A DNA stretch of 64,000 nt from a virus, in the IMG/VR virus record IMGVR_UViG_3300044640_001495, positions 62,001 to 126,000 of that record; one strand, 5' to 3'. The position numbers were made by a program, and so were the translations under genes. The number at the start of each line of letters is the position of its first letter. Within the stretch, counting starts at the first letter, position 1. Of the stretch, positions 2,155 to 25,536 are shown in pieces. A model generated the notes under the pieces. That model made no database searches, had not been told where the DNA came from, and was given only the letters and a program-made list of their open reading frames with translations.

Positions 2155-2230
2155 CGCGGGATGGAGAAGGTGGTATCTCGGAAGTCTCATAAGCTTCAGA
2201 TCGTCGGTTCGACTCCGACTCCCGCAACCA
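2155..2230 (+). tRNA. Initiator-type tRNA (fMet-like, anticodon CAT)
   Basis: This 76-nt tRNA has acceptor cgcggga and tcccgca, giving the C1 x A72 mismatch that marks bacterial initiator tRNAs. It also has A11-U24 in the D stem, anticodon loop ctcataa and T arm gtcgg-ttcgact-ccgac, with encoded CCA. Its 5' half closely follows E. coli fMet tRNA. The anticodon stem is gaagt/gcttc, so the three consecutive G-C pairs normally required for P-site initiation are absent. Confidence 0.88.
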
Positions 2231-3142: not shown

Positions 3143-3219
3143 CGGAGTGTGGCGCAGTCTGGTAGCGCACCTGGTTTGGGACCAGGGGGTCCAAGGTTCG
3201 AATCCTTGTACTCCGACCA
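3143..3219 (+). tRNA. tRNA-Pro (anticodon TGG)
   Basis: Acceptor cggagtg pairs with tactccg. The anticodon loop is tttggga (TGG) in a cctgg/ccagg stem, and the T loop is ttcgaat. Discriminator A is followed by encoded CCA. Confidence 0.93.
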
Positions 3220-3239
3220 TTTTTTAAAAAGAGAAAACA

Positions 3240-3428
3240 ATGACTAAAGACGAATACGAAGCAGCTACAGCCACAGCCATGGCAGAGTTCCTGGCCAAGG
3301 GTGGTGTGATACAACAGATCGAAAGAAATGTCAGCAGCAGAGAAGAAGGAGCCAGTTATTCATCATGGTCTAAGAAAAAACCTTCAACTTCACCTTTGGC
3401 CAATCCTCCAGAGGATCACGAAACTTGA
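3240..3428 (+). CDS. Small hypothetical protein
   Basis: This 62-residue product is unrecognised. The N-terminal half looks helical (MTKDEYEAATATAMAEFLAK) and the C-terminal half is Ser/Lys/Pro-rich and probably disordered. A gagaaaac sequence precedes the ATG. It sits between tRNA-Pro and tRNA-Gly, as do several other short genes in this block. Confidence 0.6.
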   Translation: MTKDEYEAATATAMAEFLAKGGVIQQIERNVSSREEGASYSSWSKKKPSTSPLANPPEDHET

Positions 3429-3445
3429 TTGTTAAATAATAGTAT

Positions 3446-3519
3446 GCGGGGTTAGTTTAATGGTAAAACAGCAGATTTCCAATCTTCGGTCGAGAGTTCG
3501 ATTCTCTCACTCCGCTCCA
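3446..3519 (+). tRNA. tRNA-Gly (anticodon TCC)
   Basis: Acceptor gcggggt pairs with actccgc. The anticodon loop is tttccaa (TCC), with one mismatch in its stem. The T arm is gagag-ttcgatt-ctctc. Discriminator T is followed by encoded CCA. Confidence 0.9.
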
Positions 3520-3527
3520 AGGATATA

Positions 3528-4100
3528 ATGAAAGTAATAGATCAAAACGAAGTATTTCGCAAGTTTAATTTCAGTTCAGTAATTACACAATCTGACAATG
3601 AAGAAGCCATAGGCATTATAAAAGCAATCATTGCTGACGGGAATTACTTTACTAATAGTCCCAAATATCAAACTAAAGAAAATATATTTGCTAGACCCGA
3701 AGCTGTATGGTTAAAGTATCGTATGAGTTTTTTGTTCAGTGTATTCATGTACCTAGGACGTGAAGTAAAAGTTAATAACATGATGGCTTGGTCGTTTATG
3801 ACCAATCTTGAGAGTGCCGAGGATCGTGAAAATCTGTGGCATCATCACTGGCATCCTACTCATGACACTGCCAAAATGTTGAGTGGTGTTTTGTATCTGC
3901 ACATACCCGATGATGTTAAAGATTACGATTACTGTGGTACAGAAATGGCTCCTAACGGGCCAGCAGGTGACGGCAAGTTGTTTGTAAAACCTAGTGAATA
4001 CGCATGGTTGATCTATCCCAGTGATCAGTGGCACAGGCCGGGTGTTGTACAAAGCAATCAGTATCGTTTTATATTGGCAGCAGATATAGAATATGTTTAA
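3528..4100 (+). CDS. Putative 2OG-Fe(II) oxygenase-like protein
   Basis: This 190-residue protein has the layout of a small 2OG-Fe(II) oxygenase. A His-rich WHHHWHPTHDTAKMLSG segment lies near residues 104-120 and is followed by the strand VLYLHIPDD. A C-terminal QWHRPGVV...YRFILAAD segment could supply the distal His and the 2OG-binding Arg. The exact metal ligands cannot be assigned by eye. It lies between two tRNA-Gly genes. The start has only an aaggata sequence close upstream. Confidence 0.65.
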   Translation: MKVIDQNEVFRKFNFSSVITQSDNEEAIGIIKAIIADGNYFTNSPKYQTKENIFARPEAVWLKYRMSFLFSVFMYLGREVKVNNMMAWSFMTNLESAEDRENLWHHHWHPTHDTAKMLSGVLYLHIPDDVKDYDYCGTEMAPNGPAGDGKLFVKPSEYAWLIYPSDQWHRPGVVQSNQYRFILAADIEYV

Positions 4101-4101
4101 T

Positions 4102-4175
4102 GCGGGATTAGTTTAATGGTCAAACGAAACCTTGCCAAGGTTTAGTCAGGAGTTCGATTCTCCTATCCCGCTCCA
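4102..4175 (+). tRNA. tRNA-Gly (anticodon GCC)
   Basis: Acceptor gcgggat pairs with atcccgc. The anticodon arm is aaacc-ttgccaa-ggttt (GCC). The T loop is ttcgatt. Discriminator T is followed by encoded CCA. Its 5' half resembles tRNA-Gly(TCC) at 3446, suggesting duplication. Confidence 0.93.
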
Positions 4176-4180
4176 AATTT

Positions 4181-4255
4181 CCGGCCATAGTATAATGGAT
4201 AATACAAAGAGCTTCTACCTCTTGAATGTGGGTTCGATTCCTGCTGGCCGGACCA
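4181..4255 (+). tRNA. tRNA-Arg (anticodon TCT)
   Basis: Acceptor ccggcca pairs with tggccgg. The anticodon arm is aagag-cttctac-ctctt (TCT, reading AGA/AGG codons). Discriminator A is followed by encoded CCA. It is five nucleotides from the tRNA-Gly gene and one from the next tRNA. Confidence 0.92.
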
Positions 4256-4256
4256 C

Positions 4257-4330
4257 GCTCTTGTAGTAAAATGGTATTACACAGTCTTGGTAAGACTGAA
4301 TTCCAAGTTCAATTCTTGGCTAGAGCACCA
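4257..4330 (+). tRNA. tRNA-Thr (anticodon GGT)
   Basis: Acceptor gctcttg pairs with ctagagc, with one T-T mismatch. The anticodon arm is cagtc-ttggtaa-gactg (GGT). CCA is encoded. The perfect promoter for the next gene starts two nucleotides after its end. Confidence 0.88.
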
Positions 4331-4598: not shown

Positions 4599-4817
4599 AT
4601 GGCCAAAGAAGATATAATCGAATTAACAGGCGTTGTAGAAGAAGTCTTGCCCGGTAATATGTTTAAGGTAAAAGTAGACAATCTACCCAATGTCTTATTG
4701 TGCTATACTAGTGGCAGACTCAAGCAACACAAAATTCGTATCATTCTAGGCGATCGTGTCAAGGTGGAAGTTAGCCCCTATGACATGACCAAAGGCCGAG
4801 TCTCTTATAGATTGTAA
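4599..4817 (+). CDS. infA: Translation initiation factor IF-1
   Basis: This is a complete 72-residue IF-1, the usual bacterial length. It begins MAKEDIIELTGVVEEVLPGN and keeps the S1/OB-fold features MFKVKVDN, SGRLKQHKIRIILGDRVKVE and SPYDMTKGRVSYR. IF-1 binds the 30S A site and works with IF-2 and IF-3 in choosing initiator tRNA and start codons. It lies seven nucleotides after the preceding small gene and probably shares its promoter. A phage-borne IF-1 close to a phage fMet-type tRNA suggests altered translation initiation during infection, which is inference; the identification itself is strong. Confidence 0.93.
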   Translation: MAKEDIIELTGVVEEVLPGNMFKVKVDNLPNVLLCYTSGRLKQHKIRIILGDRVKVEVSPYDMTKGRVSYRL

Positions 4818-24771: not shown

Positions 24772-25536
24772 ATGAATATCAACCAATACATCGATAGGGT
24801 AAAATTTAAAACCCTACCACAAGATTTTAATCATCAAGATGGTAAGAACTATGAAAGCTCTTACGAATACACCAAGACCTTTAGCAACTATCATTTTGAT
24901 AAATTTAAACAGGAGCATGAGGGTGAATGGTATCATCGGCTGGGAAGATTCAAAGGAGATTGGGCAGACGATGTTGCTAAAATTATAGATAAATCAAAAT
25001 CATTATCCTGGGATCAAAGTACGGCGGCAGGTCAACGTCCGGGATTCCCTGGGGGTGTTAGTCCAATGAGAACACAAGAGCAAAACGACAGAAAGGCTCA
25101 CGGTTTAGACCATGTTGATCATACTAACTTAGTTTTAGAAGAATATCTAGATCAGTTTCCTAAAATTAAAAAAATGGTAGACCATTGGCATTTAGAAAAA
25201 GTTAGTTATCGTTGCCATGTGCAATGGCCTGGTCAGACGTTCGCCATGCACATTGATAAATTATGGCATCGCAATCCCACAGACCCGTCAAAAATAGTTA
25301 GGATTATTGTACATCTAGAAGATTACGAACCCGGCCAGATCCTTATATACGGTAATGCAGTACACACTCAGTGGAGAGCTGGCGATGTTCATATGTTCGA
25401 TACCTTGAATGTTCCGCATGGAACTTTTAATATTTCAAATAAACCAAGACCAAATATCACTATCACAGGATTGAGATCAGCCCTTACTGATCAAAGATTG
25501 CAAGAAGCTACTGCTGAATCAGAATATTGTATATAA
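24772..25536 (+). CDS. Fe(II)/2OG oxygenase-like protein
   Basis: The 254-residue protein has VQWPGQTFAMHIDKLWHRNP near residues 152-171 (HxD) and VHMFDTLNVPHGTFNISNKP near residues 204-223 (distal His), followed by RPNITITG with the likely 2OG Arg. The pattern is like that of aspartyl/asparaginyl hydroxylase-related oxygenases. The N-terminal 140 residues are charged and unassigned. It lies between the TctC-like and sulfotransferase genes on the same strand. Confidence 0.66.
   Translation: MNINQYIDRVKFKTLPQDFNHQDGKNYESSYEYTKTFSNYHFDKFKQEHEGEWYHRLGRFKGDWADDVAKIIDKSKSLSWDQSTAAGQRPGFPGGVSPMRTQEQNDRKAHGLDHVDHTNLVLEEYLDQFPKIKKMVDHWHLEKVSYRCHVQWPGQTFAMHIDKLWHRNPTDPSKIVRIIVHLEDYEPGQILIYGNAVHTQWRAGDVHMFDTLNVPHGTFNISNKPRPNITITGLRSALTDQRLQEATAESEYCI

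Follow-up and report, generated by a model that had tools for sequence, protein, structure and literature searches.

A phage initiator-type tRNA that keeps only the middle of three conserved anticodon-stem G-C pairs, and patterned departures of this kind among phage initiators

The 64-kb window analyzed in this study, which spans bases 62001-126000 of a virus record 353,123 bases long, carried an initiator-type tRNA(CAU) gene on the + strand, for which ARAGORN and Rfam RF00005 (54.8 bits) gave bounds of exactly 2155-2230; its sequence was CGCGGGATGGAGAAGGTGGTATCTCGGAAGTCTCATAAGCTTCAGATCGTCGGTTCGACTCCGACTCCCGCAACCA. As read from this sequence, the acceptor opened with a C1xA72 mismatch, leaving no Watson-Crick pair at 1-72, followed by G2-C71 and C3-G70; the D-stem contained A11-U24, the anticodon loop was CUCAUAA, and the CCA end was encoded. 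The anticodon stem, GAAGU/GCUUC, comprised G-C at 27-43, A-U at 28-42, A-U at 29-41, G-C at 30-40, and U.G at 31-39. An unannotated structured non-coding RNA (1941-2154, + strand) preceded the gene. Downstream, ARAGORN located tRNAs for Pro, Gly, Gly, Arg, and Thr (3143-4330, + strand) between the initiator and a gene for translation initiation factor IF-1 (4599-4817, + strand), itself 2.4 kb from the initiator tRNA, and tRNAs for Ala and Thr were located at 33-198. The IF-1 product, an ordinary eIF-1a/IF-1 family protein of 72 amino acids, matched PF01176 over residues 7-71 at 69 bits, as well as phrog_30201. Two small ORFs in this region had matches to RNA polymerase-associated proteins: 1139-1387, upstream of the initiator gene, matched omega/Rpb6 (45.6 bits) and is a candidate phage RNAP subunit, and 3240-3428 matched the SutA RNAP-binding domain (30.9 bits, above the Pfam cut-off). 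Between 8000 and 28000, metabolic genes were unusually dense; on reading the translations, these included several fatty-acid desaturase-like membrane proteins along with 2OG-Fe(II) oxygenase-like and radical-SAM-like ORFs.

Across the whole record, ARAGORN identified 32 tRNAs covering all 20 amino acids. These included an elongator-type tRNA-Met (G000:59522-59597; G1-C72, C11-G24, loop UUCAUAC) and an Ile2-like CAT tRNA (327688-327765 of the record), and because the same phage carried both as separate genes, the gene at 2155-2230 is the initiator member of the full phage tRNA set. Ribosomal protein bS21 and peptide deformylase were also encoded, while searches of the record, which is possibly incomplete, found neither a formyltransferase nor IF-3, with positive controls working in both cases. 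The record also encoded a tmRNA of the permuted, betaproteobacterial type (RF01850/RF04321) at G000 24882-25318 (L617:5080-5427) and a Polynucleobacter-1 RNA (RF01718), belonging to a mobile RNA family, at about 208.0 kb of G000 (L624:3003-3148). Together, these two RNAs pointed to a freshwater betaproteobacterium as the probable host.

The C1xA72 mismatch and A11-U24, on which a preliminary description of this DNA had based an initiator-type assignment, were both borne out. Position 1-72 was likewise unpaired in 17/17 distinct initiators from IF-1-bearing relatives, and the elements for formylation (G2-C71, C3-G70, and A11-U24) were all present. The same description had named an elongator tRNA-Met or a lysidine-modified tRNA-Ile2 as the reading that would overturn its assignment. 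The CAU anticodon and the lack of a full set of three G-C stem pairs would fit such a tRNA; however, the paired 1-72 and Y11-R24 D-stem of elongator Met and Ile2 tRNAs were absent, the phage has distinct genes for both, and outside the anticodon arm the sequence was close to initiators with all three pairs (L297, 0.91). An elongator or Ile2 identity is thus extremely unlikely and was rejected on sequence. A prophage attachment remnant was also ruled out, as the gene belongs to the tRNA cluster of a jumbo phage, and its neighbors are conserved with it. We consider it very probable that this gene encodes a working phage initiator.

Three consecutive G-C pairs at 29-41, 30-40, and 31-39 (3GC) are described as highly conserved among initiator tRNAs of all domains. 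The tRNA at 2155-2230 had A-U, G-C, and U.G at these positions, so that the earlier claim that the three pairs are lacking was correct for two of them and overstated for the third, the middle G30-C40 pair being retained. The 3GC rule is not strictly defining, as chromosomal initiators of many Pseudomonadota and some Patescibacteria depart from it too. With the tRNA-fMet of E. coli (metZWV/metY), the phage tRNA shared C1xA72, G2-C71, C3-G70, A11-U24, the CUCAUAA loop, and G30-C40, but E. coli has G-C at both 29-41 and 31-39; the phage D-loop is also shorter by one base. With Pseudomonadota initiators of the form A29-U41/G30-C40/G31-C39, the alphaproteobacterial type, it shared A29-U41 and the middle pair, whereas those retain G31-C39. 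The E. coli “3GC mutant” tRNA-fMet similarly combines initiator features with a non-3GC stem, but in this laboratory mutant these positions are those of the elongator tRNA-Met (PMC7949028), while the phage tRNA retains G30-C40. Retention of the middle pair matters because G30-C40, a change in which alters start-codon discrimination, receives a type I A-minor contact from 16S A1339; G1338 makes a type II contact with 29-41, chiefly through the 2'-OH of residue 41, and 31-39 is not among the contacts named (PMC11497404). The retained G30-C40 argues for what would be a normal P-site grip on this tRNA.

The IF-1 gene near the initiator, as first described, proved genuine, and the neighborhood was conserved. 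A search of viral contigs with the IF-1 protein, blind to tRNA, returned 80 loci, and in 37 an initiator-type tRNA preceded IF-1 on the same strand by 1.2-9.7 kb; loci without one were often on contigs too short on that side or had no tRNAs whatever. All 37 IF-1-linked initiators, representing 17 distinct sequences, bore AGU-CUCAUAA-GCU at 29-41 (2183-2195 in the window, + strand). In the alignment of the 17, mean pairwise identity was 0.75 with a minimum of 0.55, and this 13-base block from A29 to U41 was unchanged, while pairs 27-43 and 28-42 covaried, with both sides changed in 10 sequences each. Such invariance of the A-U/G-C/U.G stem within a clade is not what decay looks like. Identical and diverged copies occurred across many independent contigs; therefore, the stem is neither chance nor sequencing error. 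One IF-1 locus listed as “Acinetobacter phage MD-2021a” (L480, CAKLQH020000005.1) was surrounded by a plain bacterial chromosome (asd, truA, leuB-leuC-leuD, ptsP), and the phage record looks misassigned.

The structured RNA, whose conserved core spans about 2055-2150 and contains covarying helices, lay 6 nt 5' of the tRNA. Among 22 relatives, all 13 proposed pairs held in 100% of cells and 8 covaried; folding of the single sequence fell short of significance (z -1.2), in contrast to the comparative covariation, which was significant. In about 50 related contigs this RNA accompanied the initiator gene, in most cases 2-700 nt upstream of it but in some downstream, and variable hairpin inserts separated the two. 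Rfam gave nothing for the stretch 1941-2154, even with E raised to 5, and RNase P or another known RNA was rejected on this basis.

The frequency of altered stems was determined with a scan of viral contigs whose pattern was silent on the stem, yielding 50 initiator-like tRNAs among the 80 contigs listed after two truncated Ile2-like or ambiguous rows were removed by hand. Full 3GC was present in 13, A-U/G-C/G-C in 11, U-A/G-C/G-C in 6, and A-U/G-C/U.G in 5, and the rest had other changes at 31-39. The same pattern recovered 66 copies from 60 Pseudomonadota genomes: 46 were G-C/G-C/G-C, 19 were A-U/G-C/G-C, and one was A-U/G-C/U.G. This last copy was near phage-like genes in a genome (G014) that also has a canonical initiator. 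Pair 31-39 was thus not G-C in 20/50 viral versus 1/66 Pseudomonadota copies (Fisher p 5e-8), a contrast rather than a rate, as the samples were not phylogenetically matched. When an R11-Y24 D-stem was also required, 47 viral tRNAs were left, 17 of them altered at 31-39. The middle pair was retained in 48 of the 50 stem-blind viral initiators and in 260/266 distinct tRNAs of initiator type when all loci were combined, a pool motif-enriched by design; its proportion of AGU/GCU stems (104/266) is inflated because the motif was the search target, and frequencies were taken from the stem-blind sample only.

Near-identical tRNAs with different stems made it clear, at the level of sequence, that the change arose repeatedly: the pairs L395/L326 and L209/L260 were 91-95% identical outside the anticodon arm. 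A tree built without the arm, noisy at some 60 columns, required 27 changes between U.G and G-C, against a shuffled mean of 80. Altered initiator-type tRNA-Met genes also occurred in named phages, with A-U/G-C/U.G in the isolates Klebsiella phage Roth49 and Vibrio phage D484, G-C/G-C/U.G in Vibrio phage VH7D and Synechococcus phage S-PM2, A-U/G-C/C-G in Aeromonas phage phiAS5, and U-A/G-C/U.G in Lak-A2 and Shigella phage Sf14; 3GC was retained in Lak-B3 and in Stenotrophomonas phage QDWS359, where the gene is annotated as tRNA-fMet. Phages are already known to carry tRNA sets and bS21, and rare departures from 3GC are known in bacteria. In the open-licence literature, no report was found of recurrent, patterned 3GC loss in phage initiators or of an invariant A-U/G-C/U.G stem in one large clade.

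The same stem was also present in cells. Several Patescibacteria genomes (Staskawiczbacteria and relatives; L360, L374, L381, L407, and others) carried AGU-CUCAUAA-GCU, with U.G at 31-39, in an apparent chromosomal initiator. The T-loop was GUGCAAUU, and this tRNA was apparently the sole initiator found; in L360, the gene directly followed an ORF read as lepA. The exact GGGCUCAUAACCC was found in none of 12 Patescibacteria draft genomes with this stem, which are MAGs and possibly incomplete. As these cells carry the block in chromosomal initiators, the stem is consistent with initiation of the ordinary kind in cells that have no phage IF-1. The genome of Actinoplanes couchii contained 13 densely packed tRNAs (L401:570-1724), among them an initiator with the phage-like stem, and canonical initiators elsewhere; the cluster looks like a mobile tRNA array.

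The model that we favor, tentatively and at just short of an even chance, is that of a functional, formylatable phage initiator acting within a nearly complete translation kit of the phage, held in the P site through G30-C40, with its stem selected by host nucleases. Host MetRS would charge the tRNA and host formyltransferase would formylate it, as C1xA72, G2-C71, C3-G70, and A11-U24 are intact. The 30S P site would hold it through G30-C40, leaving 29-41 and 31-39 free to change, and the initiator would act within the 20-amino-acid tRNA set together with IF-1, bS21, deformylase, and tmRNA. Selection, and not decay, would then have shaped the altered stem, most probably through VapC-type nucleases of the host, which destroy its tRNA-fMet by attacking the anticodon arm. 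Both enteric and leptospiral VapC target tRNA-fMet, and the enteric enzymes cut between A38 and C39 (PMC4105405). In the phage initiator, C39 of this cut site is G39, within a wobble pair. With C39 and its partner altered, the phage copy may survive the nuclease, and depletion of host tRNA-fMet could free a sub-3GC initiator from competition. The escaping copy need not be perfect, because 3GC mutants initiate in E. coli once the normal initiator is depleted (PMC7949028). There is precedent in phage tRNAs altered at nuclease sites; the proposed logic is the same, a phage copy differing at the host nuclease cut site, but those tRNAs carry anticodon-loop changes, whereas the present tRNA has an unaltered loop and differs in its closing stem (PMC10264068). 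The recognition sequence of VapC is called unknown in the same work.

That nuclease pressure selects the stem change is a possibility that we hold with reserve. Nuclease escape would not explain all of the changes, as the 11/50 viral A-U/G-C/G-C stems alter 29-41 only and keep C39, as do many Pseudomonadota. Patescibacteria hold the stem chromosomally, and phage counter-defence is not the reason there. The phage also yielded no RNA-repair ligase, which counts against the nuclease model: RtcB was absent from the possibly incomplete record, with controls working, and a search with T4 Rnl1 gave no match, its control being silent as well. The main rival is tolerated drift around a fixed middle pair, whereby G30-C40 alone would be needed and, with phage tRNAs at high copy as host tRNA declines, 29-41 and 31-39 would vary without a selected function. 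The variety of phage stems (A-U/G-C/G-C, U-A/G-C/G-C, G-C/G-C/U.G, A-U/G-C/C-G) and the A-U at 29-41 in 19/66 Pseudomonadota copies fit drift, but an exact stem unchanged in 17 sequences down to 0.55 identity, beside two adjoining pairs that change freely, does not, nor does a pair 31-39 almost never changed in bacteria; we regard drift as somewhat unlikely.

The preliminary description had linked the stem to the phage IF-1 and to altered initiation fidelity. Such phage-specific initiation, in which the initiator is matched to phage IF-1 (and bS21) so as to shift 30S selection to phage mRNAs or relax start-codon fidelity, would agree with the IF-1 gene 2.4 kb away, the linkage in 37/80 IF-1 loci with one stem throughout, and bS21 in the same genome. 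However, Roth49 and D484 carry the same stem outside the IF-1-positive records, as do Patescibacteria; IF-1-bearing Lak phages differ among themselves, Lak-B3 having full 3GC; and the phage tRNA retains G30-C40, at which changes alter start-codon discrimination (PMC11497404). As the occurrence of the stem does not follow that of IF-1, IF-1 was rejected as the general cause of the stem, and this improbable explanation ranks third. Avoidance of some other initiator-specific host factor, such as the acetyltransferase toxin AtaT or a different anticodon-arm nuclease, is very unlikely: initiator tRNA is a target of several host toxins (PMC7180214), but AtaT modifies the amino acid, and no single factor is favored here.

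The nuclease-escape model provides a concrete counter-defence idea with isolates at hand, pairing Sf14 with the Shigella flexneri VapC. Sf14 has been stated to have no tRNA-fMet (PMC12482277), and phages are reported generally to avoid tRNA-fMet where VapC-LT2 cuts it (PMC10264068). The Shigella flexneri host of Sf14 carries a tRNA-fMet-cutting VapC, and the phage tRNA-Met at MF327003.1 14400-14475 (L467:1511-1587) had U1xC72, a U-A/G-C/U.G stem, and the loop CUCAUUA, with A11-U24 holding if one extra base is allowed before the D-stem; judged by these features, it is of initiator type, contrary to what has been stated for Sf14. Published statements of “no tRNA-fMet” may rest on classifiers that expect 3GC, which suggests that phage initiator tRNAs are systematically misfiled as tRNA-Met. 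It is possible, though rather uncertain, that phages repeatedly remake the start tRNA, keeping formylation elements and G30-C40 and rewriting the rest of 3GC, so that phage translation can begin once tRNA-fMet has been lost to host defence, and that surveys infer avoidance because these genes are filed as tRNA-Met. Dozens of natural phage initiators break 3GC in a pattern, with the middle pair fixed and 29-41 and 31-39 altered, and such patterned departures would separate the true needs of the ribosome from what host lineages retain.
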